From an uncultured Bacteroidia bacterium (lineage in GTDB: Bacteria > Bacteroidota > Bacteroidia > Bacteroidales > UBA932): DNA of 64,000 nucleotides. The position numbers were made by a program, and so were the translations under genes. Positions 1-60,198 of this stretch are shown piece by piece (positions within the stretch are counted from its first letter, which is position 1; each line of letters begins with the position of its first letter). Location of the stretch: assembly GCA_902789245.1 (NCBI GenBank), contig CADAND010000011.1, positions 1-64,000 of the forward strand, read 5' to 3'. The notes beneath the pieces were generated by a model. That model saw only the letters and a program-made list of their open reading frames with translations. It searched no databases and had not been told where the DNA came from.

Positions 1-1904
<1,904 letters not shown>

Positions 1905-3550: not shown

Positions 3551-3579
3551 TTGTATGTCCGGATTTTTCGTTATATTTG
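3551..3579 (+). promoter_or_regulatory. Promoter of the esterase gene
   Basis: TTG (3551-3553), 18 bases, then TATATTTG (3572-3579), matching the Bacteroidota -33/-7 pattern. The start codon lies about 50 bases downstream. Confidence 0.55.
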
Positions 3580-3631
3580 ACGAGACCTGTCAAGGAGGTC
3601 TCAAGGCGGATAGAACATAAAAAACCGTATA

Positions 3632-4807
3632 ATGAACAAGAACCTGATTACCGCAGCGATTTCGCTGCTTTTCACGCTGACTGCCTTTTCCCAGCAGTCG
3701 AACGTCAACCTCAGCTACAACCCCCAGAAAGACACCGAGGGGCTGATTCCCTTCAGCGCGAACCTGAATTCGCCGCAGGTGAACGACGACCATACCGTCA
3801 CGTTCCGGCTCCGGGCCCCGAAGGCGGAGTCCGTCGCCCTCTCGGGCGCCATGACCACCGTCATGGGTGTCCGCGGGAACATCCCCTTCACCAAAGGGGA
3901 AGACGGCATCTGGACCCTCACCATCGGACCGCTCCCGGTCGACATGTATCAGTACAACCTCGTCGTGGACGGCGTCAGCATGGCGGATCCCAATAACACC
4001 TATGCCGCATTTACGGCCATGCCGCCTTACAGCGAGCTTATCGTCCATGGCGACGGACCGTCCTGGTGGGATGCGAAGGACGTGCCCCACGGCGCCGTGA
4101 CCCGTCATATCTACTACAGCCCCGTCACCCAGGGGCAGCGCGAGATCTATGTCTATACCCCGCCCCAGTATGACCCCAAGAAGAAATATCCCGTCCTCTA
4201 TCTCATGGGCGGAAGCGGCGAACTCCCGTCCAACTGGGTGTATGACGGCCGTGTGAATTTCATCATGGACAACCTTCTCGCAGAAGGAAAGGCGGAACCG
4301 ATGCTGATTGCGATTGTGAACAATCAGGTGATACACCGCAACCATCCCCAGCACGCGGATCTCACCTTCGACATCATGGCGCGGGAATACCGCGAGGCCG
4401 TCATTCCCTTCATCGACAGCCACTACAAGACCATCGCCAATCCGCACGGCAGGGCCATTTCCGGCCTGTCGATGGGCGGCCGCCACACGATGTTCGTGGG
4501 CCTGAAGAACCTGGATCTCTTCGCCAATTTCGGCGTTCTGAGCGCCGGAGACAATACCCCCGAGCAGACGCTGGGAGAATTCCTCAACGATCCGAAAGCC
4601 AACGACAAGGTGGACTACCTGTTCATCGGGCAGGGCGGCGCTGAGGAGAAAGGCATGTTCAATGTCCGGGTCAAGGGCTTCCGGGATGCGCTCGACAAGC
4701 ACGGAATCGAGTATGAGTACTGCTGCGTCGGGGAAACCGGCCACGACTGGTCAACCTGGCGGCACCTCCTCTACTACGGATTCCTCCCGAAACTCTGGAA
4801 GAAATAG
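3632..4807 (+). CDS. Secreted feruloyl-esterase-like alpha/beta hydrolase with N-terminal E-set domain
   Basis: 391 residues. A signal peptide (MNKNLITAAISLLFTLTAFSQ) is followed by an immunoglobulin-like/CBM48-type domain (about 25-120), seen in many bacterial family-1 carbohydrate esterases, then an esterase-D-type alpha/beta hydrolase domain (about 130-391). The nucleophile elbow GLSMGG is at about residue 275, and the histidine in the late GHDWSTWRH segment is the probable catalytic one. Such enzymes release ferulic or other acyl groups from arabinoxylan. It is transcribed alone, towards a bidirectional terminator. The fine substrate cannot be read from the sequence. Confidence 0.85.
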   Translation: MNKNLITAAISLLFTLTAFSQQSNVNLSYNPQKDTEGLIPFSANLNSPQVNDDHTVTFRLRAPKAESVALSGAMTTVMGVRGNIPFTKGEDGIWTLTIGPLPVDMYQYNLVVDGVSMADPNNTYAAFTAMPPYSELIVHGDGPSWWDAKDVPHGAVTRHIYYSPVTQGQREIYVYTPPQYDPKKKYPVLYLMGGSGELPSNWVYDGRVNFIMDNLLAEGKAEPMLIAIVNNQVIHRNHPQHADLTFDIMAREYREAVIPFIDSHYKTIANPHGRAISGLSMGGRHTMFVGLKNLDLFANFGVLSAGDNTPEQTLGEFLNDPKANDKVDYLFIGQGGAEEKGMFNVRVKGFRDALDKHGIEYEYCCVGETGHDWSTWRHLLYYGFLPKLWKK

Positions 4808-4870: not shown

Positions 4871-6862
4871 CTATTTCCGTTTCGCGCTAACGATCATATA
4901 GGCACAGGTGCCGATCAGTGGGATGATGGCGATGGCTTCGGCGCCGGAGGCCACGTGGCCGGGGGCGACGGTGTTCCAGGCATTCATGAACCAGTCCACC
5001 TGGGCAAACTTCAGGATGGCGGAGACGACGCCCATCAGTGCGCCGCCGGCGATGAAGCCGCTGGCGATGAGGGTCCCCTTCTCCTGACGGGCCGTGTTGA
5101 CGGCAGCGTCCTGGCTGCGCGTGCTGACGTACCAGGAGATGGCGCCGCCGAGCAGCAGCGGGAGGTTCAGGTCGATCGGGATGAACATACCCAGGCAGAA
5201 TGCCAGCGCCGGCACTTTGAAGACGGTCAGCAGGATGGCGATCAGCGCGCCGATGCCGTAGAGGAGCCAGGGGGCGCTGCCGCCGCTCATCATCGGCTGG
5301 ATCACGGCCGCCATCGCATTGGCCTGCGGAGCCACCAGGGCGCCGTCGCCCGTGAAGCCGTAGGTCTTGTTGAGAATCAGCATCACCCCGCCCACGGTCG
5401 CGGCCGCAACGGCGATGCCGACGAACTTCCAGGCTTCCTGCTTACGCGGCGTCGTGCCGATCCAGTAGCCGATCTTGAAGTCGGTGATCAGGCCGCCGGC
5501 GGTGCTCAGGGCCGTGCAGACCACGCCGCCGATGACCATCGCCGCAACCATGCCGGCGTTGCCCTTCAGGCCCACCGCCACGAGCACGAGGGCGGTGATA
5601 ATCAGCGTCATGATGGTCATGCCGCTGACCGGGTTCGTGCCCACGATGGCGATGGCGTTGGCCGCCACCGTCGTGAAGAGGAAGGCGATCACCGCCACGA
5701 TGACGAGACCGATCAGGGCCTGCCAGACGGTATTGACCACGCCGCCAAAGGCGAAGAAGGCGAACACGGCGAGCAGCGCGATGGCGATGCCCCAGACGAC
5801 CGACTTCATCGGCAGGTCTTCCTGCGTGCGCTCCGGCTTCTCGGCCGCGGCGCCCGGCTTGCGGCGGAACTCGCTGGTCGCGAGGCCGACCGCGCTCTTG
5901 ATTACGCCTGCGCTCTTGATGATACCGATGATGCCCGCGGTGGCGATGCCGCCGATACCGATGTGACGGGCGTATTCTTTGAAAATCTGCTCAGGCGACA
6001 TCTCCGAGATGGTCTGGGCGATGCCCGTGCCCATCAGGTCGATGACGCTGCCGCCCCAGATGAGGTTCATCAGCGGGATGATGACCAGCCAGACGAGGAA
6101 GGAGCCGCAGCAGATGATGAAGGCGTACTTGAGGCCGACGATGTAGCCCAGGCCCAGCACGGCCGCACCGGTGTTGAGCTTGAGCACCACCTTGGCCTTG
6201 TCGGCGACCACCTGGCCCCAGTGCATGACCGTGGTGCTGAGCGTCTCCGCCCAGGCACCGAAGGTCGCGACGACAAAGTCGTATAGACCGCCCACCAGGC
6301 CGGCGGCCAGCAGGGTACGGGCGCTCTTGCCGCCACCCTCGCCGCTGACGAGCACCTGCGTGGTGGCCGTGGCCTCCGGGAACGGGTACTTCCCGTGCAT
6401 CTCCTTGACGAAATACTTCCGGAAGGGAATGAGGAACAGGATGCCGAGGAAACCGCCCAGCATCGAGCTCAGGAACATCTGCCAGAAATTGACGTCCAGG
6501 CCGAGAATGTAGATGGCCGGGAGCGTGAAAATGGCGCCTGCCACCACCACGCCGGAGCAGGCTCCGATGCTCTGGATGATGACGTTCTGCCCCAGGCCTC
6601 CCTGCTTCTTCAGGGCACCGGTCAGACCGACGGCGATGATGGCGATGGGGATGGCCGCCTCGAACACCTGGCCGACCTTCAGCCCGAGGTAGGCCGCGGC
6701 AGCAGAGAAAAGGACGGTCATCAGCAAGCCCACCGTCACGCTATACGGCGTGACCTCAAAGGGCTTCTCGTTCGGGTTCAGCAGGGGCTGGTAATTCTCC
6801 CCCGGTTTCAACTCCCGGTGGGCGTTCTCCGGCAGGGACAGGTTTTTGTTTTCTTCCTTCAT
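4871..6862 (-). CDS. OPT-family oligopeptide transporter
   Basis: 663 residues, a polytopic inner-membrane protein with about 15 hydrophobic segments. The N-terminal cytoplasmic tail contains PENAHRELKPGENYQPLL and the first membrane segment holds SAAAAYLGLKVGQVFEAAIPIAI, the block typical of the bacterial peptide-transporting OPT proteins. The C-terminal part has the conserved PVSGMTIMTLI and GALVAPQANAMAA stretches. Predicted role is proton-coupled uptake of small peptides, which fits the nearby peptidase T. The ATG at 6862 is supported by the family N-terminus, yet it lies 107 bases inside the upstream OstA-like gene, so the two reading frames truly overlap. Confidence 0.92.
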   Translation of the reverse strand: MKEENKNLSLPENAHRELKPGENYQPLLNPNEKPFEVTPYSVTVGLLMTVLFSAAAAYLGLKVGQVFEAAIPIAIIAVGLTGALKKQGGLGQNVIIQSIGACSGVVVAGAIFTLPAIYILGLDVNFWQMFLSSMLGGFLGILFLIPFRKYFVKEMHGKYPFPEATATTQVLVSGEGGGKSARTLLAAGLVGGLYDFVVATFGAWAETLSTTVMHWGQVVADKAKVVLKLNTGAAVLGLGYIVGLKYAFIICCGSFLVWLVIIPLMNLIWGGSVIDLMGTGIAQTISEMSPEQIFKEYARHIGIGGIATAGIIGIIKSAGVIKSAVGLATSEFRRKPGAAAEKPERTQEDLPMKSVVWGIAIALLAVFAFFAFGGVVNTVWQALIGLVIVAVIAFLFTTVAANAIAIVGTNPVSGMTIMTLIITALVLVAVGLKGNAGMVAAMVIGGVVCTALSTAGGLITDFKIGYWIGTTPRKQEAWKFVGIAVAAATVGGVMLILNKTYGFTGDGALVAPQANAMAAVIQPMMSGGSAPWLLYGIGALIAILLTVFKVPALAFCLGMFIPIDLNLPLLLGGAISWYVSTRSQDAAVNTARQEKGTLIASGFIAGGALMGVVSAILKFAQVDWFMNAWNTVAPGHVASGAEAIAIIPLIGTCAYMIVSAKRK

Positions 6863-9314
6863 GGCGCGCTTTCTTTTTTTCGTAGCGTTCTATGTATTTC
6901 TGCAGTTTGGCTGCATCGATTTTTGCCTGTTTGGCCCTGTGGGCGGCCTCCCGGGCCTCCCGTTTGGCTTTGCGCGCATCCTTGCGGGCCTGCTTCGCGG
7001 CTGCCCTGTCGGCATCGCGCCGGTCCAGCGCTTCCCAGCGGGCATCGCGTTTCGCAATGCGCATCGCCTTCCGCAGTTCGCGCTCCGACATGTACGTCGT
7101 ATCGCGACTGGCAGGGAGATCCTTCACTCCGTTCAGGATGTCCGTGGAGTCAGGCACAGCGATCGACGTAGAGTCAGGCTCTTCTGTAGTCATTCCGGCC
7201 TGCGAGCTGGAATCTCCAACCGCAAGGGAATCCAATGCGCCTGGAGATTCCGGATCAAGTCCGGAATGACTCGGACGGGTATTGCGCCTGGTCTTGGCGG
7301 AATCGAGCGAAGCATACAGGTCGGACATGTGGCCGGGGAAATAAACATCCGTGTGGGGGAAGGCGGCACGCGGCCGGGCCTCATAGGCCTCCCGCTCGGA
7401 GTCGCGGACCACCATCGCCGTCACGTCGAATTTATCTTTCGGGCGGAGCTCCGGCTGCCAGTTGAAACCACGCAGCCTGTGCTCGGCAGCGGGGAGCTGC
7501 ACCACCGGATAGGCGTCGCTCTTGGGGCTGTCGAAGTTGTAGACGTGGTCGACATTGCCTTCGCCGTCGAATGTCGCCATCATCATCTTGCTCTCCGTCC
7601 GGTTGACGGTGGCGATGGCGTCGTTCTCCTCCAGATAAAGCAGGGCCGTGACGCCGCCCAGGGCGTCGAAACGGCGAAGCGAGGTGGAGTCGCTGAAGTA
7701 GGCGATGATGTCGGTACTCTTGATCTGGTCGAAATAGCCGCCCGCTTCCTCCGTGTGGACGAAGGCGTTGGAAAGGAGGTTGGCGCGCTCCATCTTCTCG
7801 TTGCGGAGCAGCACGAAGAGGCTGTCGGAATTATACTGGCGGTTCCCCTCGTTCCAGACGATCGGGCTCTTGTACAGGCGGGCGATGGAGTCGAGGTCGC
7901 TGTAGCGCAGGGAGTCGCAGCGGACCTGCATGTCCTTGCGGAAGATCTTGATGTCCTTGTTGGCAAACAGGAAGCCGATCTTGGTGCTGTCCGGCGCGGG
8001 CGGGATGGTGTCCTGCTGGACGGCGAGGCTGTCAACGAGATTCTTCGCTTCGCTCAGAATGACAGTAGTATCGGACGGAGATTCCGGGTCAAGCCCGGAA
8101 TGACTACTTTCAAGCCCGGAATGACTACCTTGAAGGAGGGACGCAGAACCACCGGGGCCTTTGCCACGAGCCATCGCGGCGGCGCGGTCGGCGGCGACCG
8201 GATTGTTCTTCAAGACTTCGTCGCGCTTCTGAGCGGCTTCCTCGGCCGCGCGGCGACGGTAGGCCGCGATCGGGTCCTCCAGCATTTCCGCACGGCGCTT
8301 CTCGGCCAGCGCGATCTCGTTCCCGTCCACGTCGCACTTCAGCTGCGTCCAGTAGACGAAACGCTCCGCGCCCAGGTAGGTCGTGTCCGGCTCCGCGCCG
8401 TCCTCGTCCCAGAGGGCCACGGAGGCATTCTCCTCCAGCGTCACCCGCGCGAGGGAATCCACGTACTGCAGCCGGTCGCCCAGCGCCGCGACGCGGCGGC
8501 TCTGGTCCTGGACCTGCACACTGCCGAGCATCAGCAGGTCGTTCGGCGCGCGGTAGTAGTAAAGGCTGTCGCACCAGGATTCTTCGCTCTCGCCCAGGCC
8601 ATGGACGTGATCACGGAAGAAGAAAGTCTCCTCCCCGCGCTCGTACCAGCCGGAGCCCGCCGACAGCATCCTTCCATCTTTCCAGAAATCAATTTCCGTC
8701 TGGAAGTCGGCCCGTTCCGCCTTGGAATCGTAGCGCAGGCGTTCGGTGCGCACGAAGATGGAGTCCGTGAACATGTTGACGTTGCCGCTGAAGTTGAACA
8801 TGTCCCGGGCGTTCTCGTAGGTACCCTCGTCGCTCTCGATGATCTGCCCGTCGGAGCTGATCATCGACGCGCCGCCCGAGAAGACGGCCAGGCTGTCCTT
8901 CGTGTTGTAGTCCAGGATGTTTGTCCGGAGGACGTTGTCCTGCTGGTTGCGCAGTTCAACGACGCCGCCGCGAAACTGCGCGACGCTTTCGTCGATCAGA
9001 TAGTCCAGCTTGCCGCTGGTCAGCACGGACTCGCCCTGCGTGAGCCGGACGTTGCCGAAGCAGTTGATGATTTTCTCCTCCACGTGCCAGAGGGCCGTGT
9101 CGCAGGAGAGATAAGTGCCGTTATGCAGGAAGGTGGGGTCGATGGCCTTGCGCGCCATCCGGCCGTCCTTCTCCACTTGCTCCAGGGAGAAGGCGTTGAG
9201 CAGGCGTACCAGCGAGTCCGTCTGCCCGGAGGTTGGCTGGGCAGACAGCGGCAGGGCTGCAAGCAGCAGGGCCGCGAAGAGAATCAGTCGTCTTTTCTGA
9301 CCTTGGCCGACCAT
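6756..9314 (-). CDS. OstA-like (LptA/LptD N-domain) envelope protein carrying inserted palindromic repeats
   Basis: 852 residues with signal peptide (cleaved near LSAQPTSGQ). Residues about 45-330 form the OstA-like beta-taco fold (repeats such as NCFGNVRLTQGE, FSGGASMISSDGQII, FNFSGNVNMFTDSI) found in Bacteroidota homologues of the LPS-transport proteins LptA/LptD. The middle and C-terminal parts continue with similar repeats, then end in a basic, alanine-rich coiled tail. Two low-complexity insertions, holding the peptides HSGLDPESP (twice) and VILSEAKNL, coincide exactly with DNA palindromic repeats. The 3' end overlaps the OPT gene by 107 bases and the 5' end overlaps the SurA-like gene by 31, pointing to one transcript. 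Role in LPS export is inferred from the family. Confidence 0.85.
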   Translation of the reverse strand: MVGQGQKRRLILFAALLLAALPLSAQPTSGQTDSLVRLLNAFSLEQVEKDGRMARKAIDPTFLHNGTYLSCDTALWHVEEKIINCFGNVRLTQGESVLTSGKLDYLIDESVAQFRGGVVELRNQQDNVLRTNILDYNTKDSLAVFSGGASMISSDGQIIESDEGTYENARDMFNFSGNVNMFTDSIFVRTERLRYDSKAERADFQTEIDFWKDGRMLSAGSGWYERGEETFFFRDHVHGLGESEESWCDSLYYYRAPNDLLMLGSVQVQDQSRRVAALGDRLQYVDSLARVTLEENASVALWDEDGAEPDTTYLGAERFVYWTQLKCDVDGNEIALAEKRRAEMLEDPIAAYRRRAAEEAAQKRDEVLKNNPVAADRAAAMARGKGPGGSASLLQGSHSGLESSHSGLDPESPSDTTVILSEAKNLVDSLAVQQDTIPPAPDSTKIGFLFANKDIKIFRKDMQVRCDSLRYSDLDSIARLYKSPIVWNEGNRQYNSDSLFVLLRNEKMERANLLSNAFVHTEEAGGYFDQIKSTDIIAYFSDSTSLRRFDALGGVTALLYLEENDAIATVNRTESKMMMATFDGEGNVDHVYNFDSPKSDAYPVVQLPAAEHRLRGFNWQPELRPKDKFDVTAMVVRDSEREAYEARPRAAFPHTDVYFPGHMSDLYASLDSAKTRRNTRPSHSGLDPESPGALDSLAVGDSSSQAGMTTEEPDSTSIAVPDSTDILNGVKDLPASRDTTYMSERELRKAMRIAKRDARWEALDRRDADRAAAKQARKDARKAKREAREAAHRAKQAKIDAAKLQKYIERYEKKKARHEGRKQKPVPAGERPPGVETGGELPAPAEPEREAL
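7189..7270. repeat. Dispersed palindromic repeat, copies 2 and 3, inside a coding gene
   Basis: Copy 2 (7189-7217) is in inverted orientation and more diverged; copy 3 (7243-7270) reads GGAGATTCCGGATCAAGTCC then GGAATGAC. Together they encode the segment from HSGLDPESP to SSQAGMTT in the OstA-like protein without breaking the frame. Confidence 0.85.
8038..8125. repeat. Composite repeat block inside the OstA-like gene
   Basis: It contains AGATTCTTCGCTTCGCTCAG plus AATGAC (8038-8063, encoding VILSEAKNL), one full copy of the palindrome (8077-8104) and a half copy CAAGCCCGGAATGAC (8111-8125). All are in frame. The two units are different repeat families sitting side by side. Confidence 0.85.
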
Positions 9315-52033: not shown

Positions 52034-53227
52034 TTACTGAGCAATTTCCATCTGGGGTTTATGACCCAGACCGATATCAGCAATGTGTTGGCCAATAATT
52101 TCCTGGCGCTGAGCTATGACATCGCTGTAGGCCTGCATCACGTCGGCGATACTACCAAGCTCCATGATTTGATTCAGGCCTTCTTCCAGATGCTGATTCA
52201 TAACATCCTGATGCTGATTCATAACATCCAGGTGCTGGTTCATAACCTCGAGATGCTGACTCAAAACATCCAGATGCTGGTTCATAACATCCTGGCGCTG
52301 GTTCATAACATCCTGATGCTGATTCATAACATCCTGGCGCTGGTTCATAACATCCTGGTGCTGGGCCATAACATCCTGGTGCTGGGCCATAACATCCTGG
52401 TGCTGGGCCAGCTCCATCTGCAGCATACTCAAAACATACCCGCTATTGACGGTGATAAAATCGGCCACCGCATTCTCGATCTGCAACCCGTGGGACAGAT
52501 TTGCGCCGGCATCCACGACAAGCTGATCCCCAAGTTCGAAATCGGCGATGGCAGCCAGGGCCTGCTCACCGGTGAGCAGATTGCCCTTTTTGGCCAGTTC
52601 CTCAGCCGCCTTCTCGTCGCCATCCAGGGCAGCGGTCACCTGCTGGTAGTTCACCCACTGGTCGCGGACGAGCTTCAGCTGGTCGTCGGCTTCGGACGTC
52701 TCCAGATACTTGTCGGTCGTCTCAATGAAACGGGTCGCAAGCTTGTTCTGCTTCTGCAGGGTGGTGTAAGCCAGCGAAGCGTTGATGGTGTTCTGGGTCA
52801 GGTCGGGACGGGACTCGCCGGCCAGGACGGCGTTCAAGTCGGCGCCGGCCGCTGCGACCTGGTCGTTGACATTGTTCACCATCTCGCGCGCAGCGTTCAT
52901 ATCTTTAAGAACGCTTGCGTACGCGGGGATGTTGCCGGCCACCTCGTTGGACATGTCGACCAGCGACGCGAACTGAAGGGCGCGCGTCTGCATGACCACA
53001 TAGATAGCGGACATGTTGTTCTTGAAGTCCTCGTCATTCGCGATCAGCTCTTCCATATTGGTAAGGCTCTCCGCAGCAGTCTTGCGGGCGAAACGGGAAG
53101 ACTTGGCAATGTCGCCGCTGGCGTTGTCTATGTCAACCGGCCAGTCGACCAGGGGAGAAACGATGAAACCGACTGCGCAGGCGAGAACGACCGTGGACAG
53201 AATGAGAATACCTTTCTTGCTTTTCAT
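52034..53227 (-). CDS. Membrane-anchored helical protein with ten histidine-bearing heptad repeats
   Basis: 397 residues. One N-terminal membrane segment (about 6-27) is followed by a helical domain (about 30-240) shared with the next gene upstream, then residues 274-343 made of ten seven-residue units of the type QHQDVMN, and a glutamine-rich helical end. Nearly every unit has histidine, or arginine in its place, at the same position, giving a stripe on one face of a coiled coil. No known domain. A TACCTTTG box at 53264-53271 is the probable promoter. Confidence 0.75.
   Translation of the reverse strand: MKSKKGILILSTVVLACAVGFIVSPLVDWPVDIDNASGDIAKSSRFARKTAAESLTNMEELIANDEDFKNNMSAIYVVMQTRALQFASLVDMSNEVAGNIPAYASVLKDMNAAREMVNNVNDQVAAAGADLNAVLAGESRPDLTQNTINASLAYTTLQKQNKLATRFIETTDKYLETSEADDQLKLVRDQWVNYQQVTAALDGDEKAAEELAKKGNLLTGEQALAAIADFELGDQLVVDAGANLSHGLQIENAVADFITVNSGYVLSMLQMELAQHQDVMAQHQDVMAQHQDVMNQRQDVMNQHQDVMNQRQDVMNQHLDVLSQHLEVMNQHLDVMNQHQDVMNQHLEEGLNQIMELGSIADVMQAYSDVIAQRQEIIGQHIADIGLGHKPQMEIAQ
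52199..52408 (-). repeat. Ten 21-bp tandem repeats in coding sequence
   Basis: Units are 21 bp (seven codons), the first three being almost identical and the later ones varying at a few positions (His/Arg, Gln/Leu, Met/Leu). Array length is a multiple of three, so gain or loss of units would keep the frame. Confidence 0.9.
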
Positions 53228-56146: not shown

Positions 56147-56488
56147 TTATCTGACTTTATCAAACTCTACATTTAGTCTACCTTCAAAAATAATGCGTAG
56201 TTTCGTGGAAGAGATAGTCAAAACTTCAAAATAGCCACTTGCTCCAACTTTGTAAATCTTTTCCTTCTCGTCGTACCTCCATTGTGTATATGGATACCCA
56301 TCAATAAGAAGGCCGCCGCCTTTTTCAAATGTCCATACCGTCCCAAAAGTAAACGTATCACCATCATATTCGGTGCTCACAATTTTCCATGAGCCGACAA
56401 TGCTGTTTTGGTTACCTCCTTCTTTGGTACAGGATGACATGATTCCTATCCCTAACAGGATAAAGACTATGTAAAGTATTTTTTTCAT
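56147..56488 (-). CDS. Small lipocalin-like lipoprotein A
   Basis: 113 residues from ATG 56488, which opens a lipoprotein signal (MKKILYIVFILLGIGIMSSC). The mature start TKEGGNQNSIVGSWKIVSTE is almost the same as in the next gene upstream, including the lipocalin GSW motif. Eight predicted strands. Tandem duplicates separated by 23 bases. Ligand unknown. Confidence 0.75.
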   Translation of the reverse strand: MKKILYIVFILLGIGIMSSCTKEGGNQNSIVGSWKIVSTEYDGDTFTFGTVWTFEKGGGLLIDGYPYTQWRYDEKEKIYKVGASGYFEVLTISSTKLRIIFEGRLNVEFDKVR

Positions 56489-56511
56489 ATACATTGAGGT
56501 CTTCTCGGTTA

Positions 56512-56871
56512 TTATTCAACTACTCTATTGAACTCTATGTAGAATTGAGTAATATGATAGTACATTTTGATTTTTAATGTAGATGATGAGAGCGTTACAA
56601 CCCACGCGTCGTTCGTCTGTCCCTCAGTTGTCGTGAAATGAATCGTTTGCGAATCTTTGTCATAACTGTATTGCCCCTTGACTTGACCATTTATACTTAT
56701 TGTCCCGTTCTTATCAAACTTCCACACATCACCTACATCATAGGCCCCCGCGTCGGTGCTCACAATTTTCCATGAGCCAACGAGGCCATCTTGACTACCA
56801 CTTTCTTTTGTACAAGAGAACAGGATGCCAACCCCAAGTAAAATGATGGCTAAATAGATAAACTTTTTCAT
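56512..56871 (-). CDS. Small lipocalin-like lipoprotein B
   Basis: 119 residues from ATG 56871 (signal MKKFIYLAIILLGVGILFSC). Mature start TKESGSQDGLVGSWKIVSTD. Similarity to copy A fades after the first strand pair, so the two have diverged in the barrel. A weak ATATTTGC promoter-like box lies about 20 bases upstream. Confidence 0.75.
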   Translation of the reverse strand: MKKFIYLAIILLGVGILFSCTKESGSQDGLVGSWKIVSTDAGAYDVGDVWKFDKNGTISINGQVKGQYSYDKDSQTIHFTTTEGQTNDAWVVTLSSSTLKIKMYYHITQFYIEFNRVVE

Positions 56872-56898
56872 AAGTGTTATGTGATTAGTGTTATGCAA

Positions 56899-57253
56899 AT
56901 ATAGTGATTTCAGTCATTTTAACACAACGAAACATGAAAACAACCTCAAAATAGTACTCCGCAACAATGATTCATCAACATTATTCATGGTGAAAACTGT
57001 GTTACGAGGTTCTAAAATGTGGTGTGAAAGTGTAAACGAGGTATTAAATAGACCTGATTGCATGGTCTTGGGATTGTGTTCTGAGGCATCTCCCGCCGCG
57101 AGGTTTGGCTGGGCGGGAGGGGAAATACTTGATTCAAGAGCCAGTGGTATGAGGCAAATGGAGCCTAAGGGCCAAAAAGATTGCGGTTGCCAAATGGCAG
57201 CCGCAGTCTCAACGATGGAATAAAACCCGTTCTGTTTCTTCAGTAAACAAGGC
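56899..57253. other. Gene-free stretch with strong hairpins
   Basis: No convincing gene. Contains a perfect 8-bp stem CTCCCGCC/GGCGGGAG at 57090-57119 and the terminator described separately. Its right half is much richer in GC than both neighbours. Open frames exist on both strands (up to 134 codons) but lack recognisable domains and start signals; they probably reflect base composition. It could be the tail of a longer RNA or a remnant of a mobile element. Confidence 0.4.
57174..57208 (-). terminator. Strong terminator after the candidate precursor peptide
   Basis: 14-bp stem (GACTGCGGCTGCCA with TGGCAACCGCAATC, two mismatches) closing on a tiny loop, then TTTTT on the minus strand. It lies 46 bases past the stop of the 34-residue ORF. 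Confidence 0.88.
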
Positions 57254-57358
57254 CTAGCAGCGATAAACCGGCCCGCAGTTGCTTGATCCAGGATTCTGCG
57301 TACATCCAAACATGACAAGAACGGATGACTTTTTTGAAATCTTTAATTCTACTTTCAT
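57254..57358 (-). CDS. Candidate RiPP precursor peptide, 34 residues, three C-terminal cysteines
   Basis: Sequence: MKVELKISKKSSVLVMFG, then CTQNPGSSNCGPVYRC. A lysine-rich leader-like start is followed by a small-residue core with Cys19, Cys28 and Cys34 as its only cysteines. It lies 79 bases after the radical SAM/SPASM gene, same strand, with its own TATCTTTG box (57412-57419) and a terminator. Precursors of peptide natural products modified by such enzymes are often this short and cysteine-bearing. No named family recognised; identity as precursor is inference from position and composition. Confidence 0.6.
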   Translation of the reverse strand: MKVELKISKKSSVLVMFGCTQNPGSSNCGPVYRC

Positions 57359-57411
57359 AATTGTACCCTTAAAGTGTTATACTGAGTGGTCTTGTCCACG
57401 GAAGACAAATA

Positions 57412-57419
57412 CAAAGATA
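57412..57419 (-). promoter_or_regulatory. -7 box before the candidate precursor
   Basis: TATCTTTG on the minus strand, about 54 bases before the 34-residue ORF and just beyond the stop of the maturase gene, so the peptide could be made in excess over the enzyme. The -33 region reads AATG instead of TTTG. Confidence 0.5.
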
Positions 57420-57437
57420 TAAAAAACTATTAAATAA

Positions 57438-58967
57438 TCATTGCGTACATATTACTTTGTGTAAATGAGGCATTTCCATTTCCGGTTCCTTTGCCAAACG
57501 CGCAGCCAGAGATCCCCCCTCTAATGGATCATATCCCGCCATCATTTTCTTCGCCAGATTGAATCGCACCTTTGCAAGCCAGCAATTATTCTCCGAGGCC
57601 TTTTTATAATCGCCACGTAAGGAATAATTCGTTCCAGGGCATAGACTACAATAATCACAGTAATCATACCTTCCGCATTCCTCGCTTTCGGATAGTTTGT
57701 AGTTCCTCCATTTGTGCAGTTCTTCTGATTTGTTCAAGATCTCGTTAATAGAATCCTCCAACACATTCCCAAAAACTAAATGAAAAGAACAACAAGGGAT
57801 AACATCCCCATATGGAGTTAAGCAGAAAGTACTTTCCCCAGCTCCGCAAGGTCCGGCATCTAAGGATCTCTTCTGCCCGCCATAATTAGGCGCCTCTTTT
57901 CCAACATATAGAGGGATATTCTCATCCCTGAGAACAACCTCCATTTGCTCTGGAGACAAACGAAGATATTTACTTACACACAAATCCCCCTCCACAGAAT
58001 CTGTCACAGACACCTCGAATTGTGGTATTGCGCCGTATTTCTTAGCCAATTCAGCAACTTCATAGTAATGCTTTAGGTTAGGGCGCATAACGCAGCATTT
58101 AAGATTAATGGGGACAGCAAGATCCGCTAGTGCTTCTACTACAGCTATGGATTTTGCCCAAGATCCAGGGATACGCGTAATGGCATCGTGCTCTTCAGCG
58201 TTTCCACTGTAAATAGAAATGCCGACAACGCGTGGATAGTATTTCGACAATTTCTCAATATCGTTAAGTATCCCTATGCCATTTGTATAAATCGTTGTTG
58301 CAATTTCTTTTTTGTAGAGATATTCTATTATTCCCCAAATGTCTTTATTTGAAAAAGGATCGCCTCCTGTCAAGCATACTCTAGCAAGACCCTCCTCGTA
58401 TAGTTCATCTATGACCCTCTTATAGTTTTGCAATGTCATTTGATCAAACTCTGCCCGATGACTTGTTTCTTCATCATTTCTCACGGCCCCAGGATTATAG
58501 CAATGTATACATTTCGCCGAACAGCGATAAGTTAATTCGAACATCATGGTTGTGATGCCCCCAACCCTCTTTGAATAATCCAACTCAGCGGTTGAAGTAT
58601 CGAATGGGAGTTTATCTTCAATCGTCCTCTCCCCTATGCCGCCATTCTGTTTCCTCCAAAGAGCAATTTGTTTACGATACCGAGCGATACCTTCTTCTGT
58701 TGGTAATTGCTCAACCAACAAACCGAGCGACCTCAGTTCATCAAAAAAAGGGTCTAAACTTGATTTGCATATTCCAGTTTTCGTCGCGACCACCGCTATT
58801 GACACTTCTTTATTGCGTCCTGACGAAAGTACACAACCTATGACATCAGCAGATTCATCTTCAAATGAGTATGCCATTCCGTCAAGCAGATTATAATATA
58901 GTGCTGAATGCGACTTTTTATCGTATCTACCACAGGTCCATTCGGGACGGAAATAACGTTTATCCAT
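57438..58967 (-). CDS. Radical SAM/SPASM peptide maturase
   Basis: 509 residues. Residues about 1-100 form a small PqqD/RRE-like winged-helix region expected to bind a leader peptide. The radical SAM core (about 140-330) has CSAKCIHC (Cys149, 153, 156) for the SAM-binding cluster and GGDP at 201-204. The SPASM region contributes cysteines at 374, 382, 392-393, 431, 437, 440, 443 and 462 (CGAGESTFCLTPYGDVIPCC; CDYCSLC), enough for two auxiliary clusters. Such enzymes cross-link or epimerise ribosomally made peptides. AT-rich compared with the backbone. Product unknown. Confidence 0.9.
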   Translation of the reverse strand: MDKRYFRPEWTCGRYDKKSHSALYYNLLDGMAYSFEDESADVIGCVLSSGRNKEVSIAVVATKTGICKSSLDPFFDELRSLGLLVEQLPTEEGIARYRKQIALWRKQNGGIGERTIEDKLPFDTSTAELDYSKRVGGITTMMFELTYRCSAKCIHCYNPGAVRNDEETSHRAEFDQMTLQNYKRVIDELYEEGLARVCLTGGDPFSNKDIWGIIEYLYKKEIATTIYTNGIGILNDIEKLSKYYPRVVGISIYSGNAEEHDAITRIPGSWAKSIAVVEALADLAVPINLKCCVMRPNLKHYYEVAELAKKYGAIPQFEVSVTDSVEGDLCVSKYLRLSPEQMEVVLRDENIPLYVGKEAPNYGGQKRSLDAGPCGAGESTFCLTPYGDVIPCCSFHLVFGNVLEDSINEILNKSEELHKWRNYKLSESEECGRYDYCDYCSLCPGTNYSLRGDYKKASENNCWLAKVRFNLAKKMMAGYDPLEGGSLAARLAKEPEMEMPHLHKVICTQ

Positions 58968-58991
58968 AATGAGTGAGAGTTGATTATTTAG

Positions 58992-59039
58992 TTATCTAGC
59001 AGGAGCCCGTTCATAAACACTCCACTCAAATATAGGCAT
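58992..59039 (-). CDS. Possible 15-residue leader or precursor peptide
   Basis: ATG at 59039 reads MPIFEWSVYERAPAR then stop, 24 bases before the maturase start. Very short precursors with Trp and Tyr are known for several radical-SAM peptide families. Against this, the bases TATATTTG inside it match a -7 box, so the stretch could be promoter rather than gene. Kept as a low-confidence call. Confidence 0.3.
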   Translation of the reverse strand: MPIFEWSVYERAPAR

Positions 59040-59076
59040 TATTCACGAATTCATATCGTTAATTGTGTTATAACCT

Positions 59077-59126
59077 TGATACAATTGCGATTATAATTGC
59101 ATTTATTATTATCTTTGACTGTATCA
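59077..59126. promoter_or_regulatory. Divergent control region between maturase and M42 peptidase
   Basis: TATCTTTG (59110-59117) is a -7 box for the peptidase. It is flanked by the inverted repeat TGATACA (59077-59083)/TGTATCA (59120-59126) and contains a near-palindrome GCGATTATAATTGC (59087-59100). The arrangement looks like an operator serving both divergent genes. Confidence 0.45.
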
Positions 59127-59154
59127 TATTGTTTTCGACCAACCACATTATACC

Positions 59155-60198
59155 ATGACTCAGTCATTAAATGATTTCCTTATTCGCATTCTAAATGCGC
59201 ATAGCCCTTCGGGATCTGAAGAAAACGTGATTTCGTTGTTTGTTGATTTCATCACCCCATATATTTCAGAGATCAGAATCGACGCATTAGGGAACTGTAT
59301 CGCATCAAAGAAAGGAACCGGTAATAGGAAAATAATGCTTATGGCACATGCAGATGAAATTGGCCTGATGATCAATTACATCGATGATAGGGGCTTTCTC
59401 TATTTCAAATGCATTGGGGGGTTGGATTGCAATTTACTTCCTTCCCGTCAAGTCTCCATACTTGGGGAAAATGGCACAGTCACTGGGGTAATTGGCAAGA
59501 AACCCATCCACTTGATGGGGCAAGATAATCTAAACAAATCTCTCCAGCCGGAAGATTTATGGATTGATATTGGGGTTAAGGACAAAGCAGAAGCGGAATC
59601 TCTTGTTAATATTGGCGATGTAGTTACATTATTATCGAATACCAATATCCTAGCTAATGATTATATCATCTCAAAATCTACGGATGACCGAGTCGGCATT
59701 GCAATTCTGGCAGGGGTGGCACAAAACATAAAACAATTATCATTGGGAGTCGATGTATTTTTGGTGGCATCTGTCCAGGAAGAAATCGGTGCCCGAGGCG
59801 CTCAAGTTGCAACGAATGCAATTCTTCCCGATGAGGGCATAGCAATAGATGTTACTCATGCGACAGATTATCCCACAATGTCGCCAATAAAAGATGGAGA
59901 CATCTCACTCGGCGGTGGCGTTGTCATTCCGTTTGGGCCAAATATGAACAAATGCATTAACATTTCTTTAATGGACACCGCTAAGACCAACGGTATTCCT
60001 TTCCAAAAAGAAGCCATTGCGGGCCCAACCCCCACGGATGCCAGAATGATCCAAATTGCTGGTGCGGGAATTAGAACCGGACTCCTTTCCATCCCATGCA
60101 GATATATGCACACGCCCAATGAGATTATTTCTGTTCATGATGTTGATTCGGCTGTGTCTCTACTTACAGAGTACTTAAAGAATGCCAGTGCGACTTAG
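59155..60198 (+). CDS. M42-family aminopeptidase
   Basis: 347 residues, normal family length. Metal and catalytic residues are in place: His65 and Asp67 (AHADEIG), Asp177/178 (STDDRVG), Glu209-Glu210 (QEEIGARGA), Asp232 (IDVTHA) and a late histidine (CRYMHTPNE). Cytosolic dinuclear metallopeptidase, tetrahedral oligomer in known members, cutting N-terminal residues from peptides. Divergent from the radical SAM gene; it might trim the modified peptide, but it could be unrelated. Confidence 0.93.
   Translation: MTQSLNDFLIRILNAHSPSGSEENVISLFVDFITPYISEIRIDALGNCIASKKGTGNRKIMLMAHADEIGLMINYIDDRGFLYFKCIGGLDCNLLPSRQVSILGENGTVTGVIGKKPIHLMGQDNLNKSLQPEDLWIDIGVKDKAEAESLVNIGDVVTLLSNTNILANDYIISKSTDDRVGIAILAGVAQNIKQLSLGVDVFLVASVQEEIGARGAQVATNAILPDEGIAIDVTHATDYPTMSPIKDGDISLGGGVVIPFGPNMNKCINISLMDTAKTNGIPFQKEAIAGPTPTDARMIQIAGAGIRTGLLSIPCRYMHTPNEIISVHDVDSAVSLLTEYLKNASAT

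Follow-up and report, generated by a model that had tools for sequence, protein, structure and literature searches.

Our finding is a 34-codon open reading frame (ORF) that almost certainly forms a dedicated precursor-maturase pair with the gene of a 509-residue radical SAM/SPASM enzyme. The pair was studied in a 64,000-nucleotide stretch of DNA from an uncultured Bacteroidia bacterium (the window). Both genes lie exactly where a preliminary description of this DNA had put them, the ORF following the maturase gene on the same strand (Table 1). The same enzyme and peptide were found together in gut and rumen bacteria, and the comparisons suggest a hitherto undescribed family of peptides modified by an enzyme; one odd ORF has become a family without any precursor family model. 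As a whole, we consider it quite probable that the pair belongs to a compact RiPP pathway, in which the maturase would form a Cys-centred cross-link, an M42 aminopeptidase would trim the peptide, and the product would be intracellular.

Table 1. Positions in the window of the maturase, the precursor, and the neighbouring features
Feature	Positions	Strand	Evidence
RRE-like/radical SAM/SPASM peptide maturase, 509 aa	57438..58967	minus	Pfam, homologue alignment, AlphaFold, solved-structure matches
RRE-like winged-helix domain (beta3-alpha3), maturase residues 1-85	58713..58967	minus	predicted secondary structure, SuiB/SkfB structure alignments
Radical SAM barrel, maturase residues 138-330	57978..58556	minus	CX3CX2C at C149/C153/C156
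SPASM domain, maturase residues 370-470	57558..57860	minus	seven conserved Cys
Intergenic stretch, 79 nt, with TATCTTTG at 57412-57419	57359..57437	minus	pseudoknot of most relatives not detected here
Precursor peptide MKVELKISKKSSVLVMFGCTQNPGSSNCGPVYRC	57254..57358	minus	34 codons, profile and position next to maturase
Leader-like part, residues 1-18	57305..57358	minus	leader pattern conserved in relatives
Core-like part, residues 19-34	57257..57304	minus	shared C19, C28, G29, Y32, R33
Terminator-like hairpin followed by U tract, 3' of peptide gene	57174..57208	minus	folding z score
M42 aminopeptidase	59155..60198	plus	PF05343 1.8e-87; divergent from maturase

In the AlphaFold prediction (pLDDT 92.9), the maturase begins with an RRE-like winged-helix domain, which is followed by a radical SAM barrel and then by a SPASM domain. 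The families PF04055 (radical SAM, 5.9e-20) and PF13186 (SPASM, 1.9e-09) match the protein as well as all 55 members of the homologue alignment. The cysteine motifs in the preliminary description are conserved: the CxxxCxxC motif (C149/C153/C156) is invariant in 55/55 aligned homologues, and among the seven SPASM cysteines, C374, C392, C431, C440, and C443 are kept in all 55 and C437 and C462 in 54. The spacing of the latter set (CX12GX4C, CX5CX2CX2C, and a final C) is unusual when compared with the usual CX2CX5CX3C. In the barrel, residue 291 (58095-58097) is Cys in 54 of the 55 homologues.

The N-terminal region had been called RRE/PqqD-like. It is RRE-like in predicted shape (residues 11-80, beta3-alpha3), but PqqD is absent from the Pfam families listed for the 55 members (25 listed, 49 in all); weak winged-helix families occur in some members (HTH_45 in seven, best 8.6e-05). 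Solved structures were matched by using VIA-align, as they were for the SelO-like protein described below. The best matches are SkfB, CteB, and SuiB, with anSME tied with all three. The alignments reach the N-terminal domain (SuiB from residue 5, 5..464; SkfB from residue 11, 11..447), the comparison covering mainly residues 125-469. Profile matches were to SkfB (9.9e-21) and also to PqqE and CteB, and the model of the subtilosin maturase AlbA (NF012164) scored 97.1 bits, below its cut-off of 850. In one relative (L029:7162-9339), about 250 aa resembling 8-oxoguanine glycosylase (OGG-like domain, PF21790) are fused to the N-terminus of the maturase; L108 (4191-6452) and L109 probably have the same fusion, judging by their equal length.

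A contig scan with the maturase alignment A1 gave 134 relatives; the same scan with the single window maturase as the query gave none. We studied 83 regions, namely the best 80 of the 134 relatives, two loci from the genus (G066 and G096), and the window; the loci compared are thus the nearer ones. A conserved peptide next to orthologous maturases, which the preliminary description had named as the confirming result, was found: in 81 of these 83 regions (best 80 of 134 relatives plus three), an ORF of about 34 codons adjoins the maturase gene, 73 being detected by profile at E<0.005 (including L041, whose frame is interrupted) and eight assigned by position only (L076, L090, L099-L102, L105, and L106). 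The two regions without a precursor, again among the best 80 of 134 plus three, are L070, where the contig ends, and L103. When the profile was run over all 10,872 small ORFs of the 83 regions, every match below E 0.005 was on the maturase strand and at most 390 nt downstream. A profile made without the window gave this peptide an E value of 3e-10, as against 0.075 for the second-best of the 606 small window ORFs; a profile of eight relatives, picked by place ahead of any profile search, gave 2.1e-07 for the peptide and 0.093 for the next. Between close precursor pairs, the differences at codon positions 1, 2, and 3 number 106, 99, and 276 (29 non-independent pairs), and the ORF is therefore regarded as coding and constrained.

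Among 393 genomes of the order, the genes of six maturases from other genomes (37-55% identity) are each directly followed by an ORF of 34-36 codons, that of L021 being only loosely alike. Within the genus (101 genomes), the G066 and G096 maturases (35-36% identity) also have the precursor, and no such peptide was seen by eye beside the maturase of L012 (same genus, 32%). A phylum scan with the maturase at E<=1e-80 returned only its own genome out of 395. The 80 named contigs of the family (best 80 of 134 relatives) comprise 79 from Bacteroidota and one from Ignavibacteriota, and 41 of these 80 have rumen-type titles. Extra tandem precursor copies were observed in L091 (three, 3571-4019) and L094 (two, 6569-7018). 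By eye, other small Cys-rich ORFs (MKTYKKVVVEAVN...; MEYKKPEV...CKKGPCGRPSC) lie next to more distant radical SAM/SPASM enzymes of the same genus (L013:2648-2773, L014:2955-3068, and L015:919-1032), and these are perhaps separate precursor families.

The anatomy of the precursor was examined in 83 copies (81 distinct) from 80 regions, L041 being left out. The relatives share the leader pattern MK-x-[ED]-L-x-[IV]-S-x-x-S, mostly as MKVxL[x][IV]Sx[AS]S. The motif C-x(5-9)-CGxx[YW]R is present in 60 of the 83 copies, with a found spacing of C-x(7-8): in 58 of the 60, the second Cys comes eight residues after the first, and this distance is longer by one residue in the window and in L097. Pro mostly follows the first Cys (45/60), the aromatic position is Tyr in 56 and Trp in four, and the residue two after the second Cys is Ile in 50 and Val in eight, with Pro only in the window. 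The conserved positions of the window precursor are Cys19, Cys28, Gly29, Tyr32, and Arg33. Of the three cysteines proposed as cross-linked in the preliminary description, Cys19 and Cys28 are common to the relatives, but Cys34 is peculiar to the window; it is ruled out as a shared target, YR being most often followed by S, Q, T, M, A, or G in the 60 copies with the motif. As Tyr32 and Arg33 are also in the conserved set, Tyr and Arg could be targets as well as Cys.

The remaining cores were grouped under labels of our own into class II (L082, L085, and L091), class III (10 loci), and class IV (L077 and L080), in addition to single odd cores in L074, L076, L096, L105, and L106. Classes II-IV do not have CGxxYR, yet Cys is kept, as a single Cys in class IV. 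In a quick tree of 79 maturases, each of these classes corresponds to one branch (SH-aLRT 100). At least one Cys is present in all 83 precursor copies, and two or more in 80. The earlier remark that the peptide fits no known precursor family held: no NCBIfam or Pfam family matches the window peptide, and the NCBIfam search for precursors gave nothing for the window peptide (E up to 10) or for 13 relatives (E up to 1 for four and up to 10 for nine).

The core classes also bear on which half of the maturase reads which half of the peptide. Between L077/L080 (class IV) and L078/L051 (class I), the maturases are 86-95% identical over residues 1-100 and 91-92% over residues 100-330 (three pairs), but fall abruptly to 36-41% over residues 330-370, with 51-52% over residues 370-470 and 26-36% beyond 470; the control pair L051/L078 keeps 79-84% over residues 330-470. 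The precursors of the same loci have similar leaders and replaced cores. This is a natural joint swap of the SPASM half and the core, and with it nature supplies an experiment for asking which half of a radical SAM/SPASM maturase reads the core. Over 78 loci, the core distance tracks the SPASM distance (partial rank correlation of 0.58 given the RRE region) and not the RRE distance (-0.16 given SPASM). The swap and this correlation support, as far as sequence comparison goes, a SPASM half that would read the core. By analogy, the RRE-like N-terminal domain may read the leader. The leader distance follows the RRE region and SPASM about equally (0.43 vs 0.44; given the barrel, 0.09 and 0.24, respectively; 78 loci), and covariation thus gives no backing to this assignment.

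The accessory gene of the pair is that of an M42 aminopeptidase, as in the window, or of a SelO-fold protein. The M42 gene is present in 13 of the 83 regions (best 80 of 134 relatives plus three). Divergent in the window, it lies downstream on the maturase strand in the 12 other loci, at a distance from the maturase start of 1.7-2.1 kb (nine loci) or 2.8-3.0 kb (three loci). Its residues H65, D67, D177, E209, E210, D232, and H319, which we take to be the expected metal and catalytic residues, are invariant in 13/13 loci. In 101 genomes of the genus (48 of them at least 90% complete), M42 was found at E<=1e-30 only in the window genome, apart from one 31% match. The gene of a 280-aa SelO/YdiU-fold protein follows the precursor in L030 (6885-7721) and 39 other regions (one a fragment), and is absent from the window genome; only two of 198 genomes of the order have it, both with the maturase. 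Among 75 eligible regions, one has both genes, 36 only the SelO-like gene, 10 only M42, and 28 neither (Fisher p 0.0067, kinship ignored). The SelO-like protein has about 280 aa, in comparison with about 460-480 in the chains of SelO/YdiU nucleotidyl transferases, to which it is 11-13% identical, and six scanned proteins gave no Pfam family at its cut-off. These observations would place a probable SelO-fold protein in a peptide pathway, a combination without precedent among the literature matches listed, as judged from titles and abstract openings.

No exporter occurs among the neighbour families recurring in more than 10 regions. An upstream Ser/Thr kinase gene (35 regions) and the gene of a 190-aa protein (26 regions) were considered and rejected as parts of the system; their places and strands vary, and the one kinase scanned looks common.

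The sequence that precedes the precursor has, in most relatives, the form GGG(A/G)-UAAAU-stem-U/C-CCC-loop-stem-UAUAAC. An H-type pseudoknot score of at least 20 was obtained for 77 of 84 such stretches, one of them misplaced and the top-scoring structure not always being the consensus one, vs 12.6% of 420 shuffled stretches. For covariation, 39 sequences were taken from 78 distinct stretches, leaving out near-copies and oddly spaced types, and aligned with plain MAFFT. Of the cells, 94.0% pair, and eight of nine pairs change on both sides; the covariation is 0.540, vs 0.173 in shuffled and at most 0.196 in slid alignments. The stem adjoining UAUAAC pairs in 99.5% of cells and the other in 87.2%, its first pair failing in 20 of the 39 sequences. 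In 934,551 bases, the resulting model found 52 places at E<0.001, 39 of them in the model and 13 not; 51 are just before a precursor (for example, in L033, L050, L054, and L059), and the remaining one is the equivalent position at the contig end in L070. Where the gap is long (L033, 189 nt; L059, 198; L050, 346), the pseudoknot stays with the precursor. Under stricter filters, one of 198 genomes of the order has it, at the maturase locus itself. A second copy (L071:7898-7948, E 0.0056) precedes an ATG frame that ends after four codons by eye. A known RNA family was ruled out by Rfam searches of the relatives: 12 loci (138,751 bases) gave no family at its gathering score, and the pseudoknot in L054:6400-6800 gave no match up to E 10. 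This is a covarying RNA element outside Rfam that is tied to a RiPP precursor gene, and in the open-licence literature the single paper mentioning a pseudoknot, RiPPs, and a precursor peptide together has, by its title, another subject.

In the window, neither the H-type search nor the model detected the pseudoknot, and six Rfam matches in 56900-59300 are all far below gathering scores. The box attributed to the ORF exists (TATCTTTG, minus strand) and has no -33 partner by eye, but there are 34 occurrences of TANNTTTG in the window, vs 12 expected. What had been called a very strong terminator is a hairpin with mismatches and a U5 tract (z -2.46), which is missing from the output of a simple terminator scan. 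At 72/83 places, the precursor is followed by a hairpin with z below -2, vs 6/83 control stretches inside the maturase gene. We read the pseudoknot and the 3' hairpin as signs that the precursor message is separately controlled or protected. Elsewhere in the window, a 164-nt direct repeat (55899-56062/62850-63013, 77% identical) flanks the maturase stretch and derives from two related small ORFs (MTTYYY...YKGGKVVE). Adjoining related small lipoprotein-like ORFs (56147-56494 and 56512-56898) contain a 120-nt repeat (73%), and a 397-aa ORF (52034-53227) has many tandem QHQDVM-type repeats.

In the pathway that we propose, the RRE-like domain with which the maturase begins would bind the N-terminal half of the precursor (MKVELKIS..S), the SPASM half would select the core, and the radical SAM/SPASM part would cross-link the C-terminal half of the precursor at one or more sites. 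Most likely, Cys19 and Cys28 would contribute the thiols, giving thioethers to backbone or side-chain carbons as in sacti- and ranthipeptides. A Cys-centred cross-link seems reasonably likely, and thioethers are put first because no feature other than Cys occurs in every core class. Against the argument from the fold, anSME, which has another chemistry, ties with SkfB, CteB, and SuiB. In the 60 copies with the motif, Tyr-Arg is no less constant than the second Cys, which follows in part from how the motif is defined, and the chemistry could thus also be on Tyr, Arg, or Ile. The leader would then be removed in the cytosol; in this strain, the M42 aminopeptidase is the most likely enzyme to trim from Met1 until it meets the cross-linked core. 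We slightly favour this role of M42, against which stand the 28 of 75 regions with neither accessory gene and the divergent orientation in the window. The mature product would act inside the cell, since the recurrent neighbour families include no exporter.

The main rival, which we consider unlikely, is a cofactor pathway similar to those of mycofactocin and PQQ, in which the maturase would act on the CG[IV]xYR end (on Tyr or the nearby Ile/Val) and a peptidase would free a small modified Tyr piece as an intracellular redox or signalling cofactor. According to the accessible part of PMC5264612, MftA has 30-80 aa and ends in IDGXCGVY, strikingly like CG[IV]xYR, and a creatininase is often encoded nearby. 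Ile or Val occupies its place in 58 of 60 precursors and Tyr in 56, the M42 peptidase gene recurs near the pair, a recurrent exporter is lacking, and the MftC model (TIGR03962) does score 90 bits on the maturase. However, this is far under the 265-bit cut-off, no precursor family matches, the Tyr is not C-terminal and is replaced by Trp in four copies, the window has Pro for Ile/Val, and classes II-IV keep Cys and not CGxxYR. A radical SAM epimerase, or another change without a cross-link, is much less probable; the barrel C291, conserved in 54/55 homologues, would be the H donor, giving D-residues in the peptide. It lies 142 residues past the first cluster Cys, unlike the spacing in EpeE, and neither the full SPASM cysteine set nor the conserved pair of substrate cysteines is epimerase-like, even if epimerases do use a critical Cys, as stated in the accessible part of PMC8326336. 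That the ORF is a chance or untranslated one, with the true substrate elsewhere, is extremely improbable and is rejected as far as sequence can reject it: about 60 near genomes gave only weak, chance-like matches to the window peptide (the best, G024, E 0.023, is antisense to a methyltransferase-like ORF and is taken as chance), but the conserved position in 81/83 regions (best 80 of 134 relatives plus three), the profile match (2.1e-07), and the codon pattern oppose this.

Returning to the cross-linking pathway, a bolder version of it, which we regard as doubtful, is an undescribed intracellular RiPP class. Its precursor would be under the control of its own H-type pseudoknot, which might respond to the mature product or to a related metabolite; the peptide would be finished by M42 or by a SelO-like nucleotidyl transferase. 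The SelO branch would make nucleotide-tagged cross-linked peptides, and the window would represent the M42 branch and have lost the RNA or altered it past recognition.

We found no description of this precursor family in the open-licence literature (most subscription papers, including an atlas of radical SAM RiPPs, lie outside this search), and no paper there that treats an M42 aminopeptidase together with a RiPP leader peptide. The radical SAM RiPP clusters of Bacteroidales are similar in that they come from the same order and frequently contain radical SAM/SPASM enzymes; as given in the accessible part of PMC10352776, they have GG-motif leaders and PCAT transporters, and M42 does not occur in the main text of that paper. 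The mycofactocin (MftA/MftC) and PQQ (PqqA/PqqE) systems share with ours a short precursor, a CGxY-type end (MftA), a radical SAM/SPASM enzyme, and a nearby peptidase gene. In contrast, the RRE-like domain is fused here and separate there, and our maturase scores under the cut-offs of their family models. Unlike in MftA, Arg and, in most cases, one or two further residues come after the Tyr here, and there is a second conserved Cys. The system of SuiB (streptide synthase) differs in its precursor, the streptide-type motif KxxxW having no counterpart here. As in the SkfB, CteB, and AlbA systems for sacti- and ranthipeptides, a maturase with an RRE-like front, a radical SAM domain, and an auxiliary-cluster domain adjoins a short Cys-bearing precursor; ours differs from them in the precursor, the unusual SPASM spacing, and the lack of a recurrent exporter, and the Cys in 83/83 precursor copies is no more than compatible with a sacti- or ranthipeptide.
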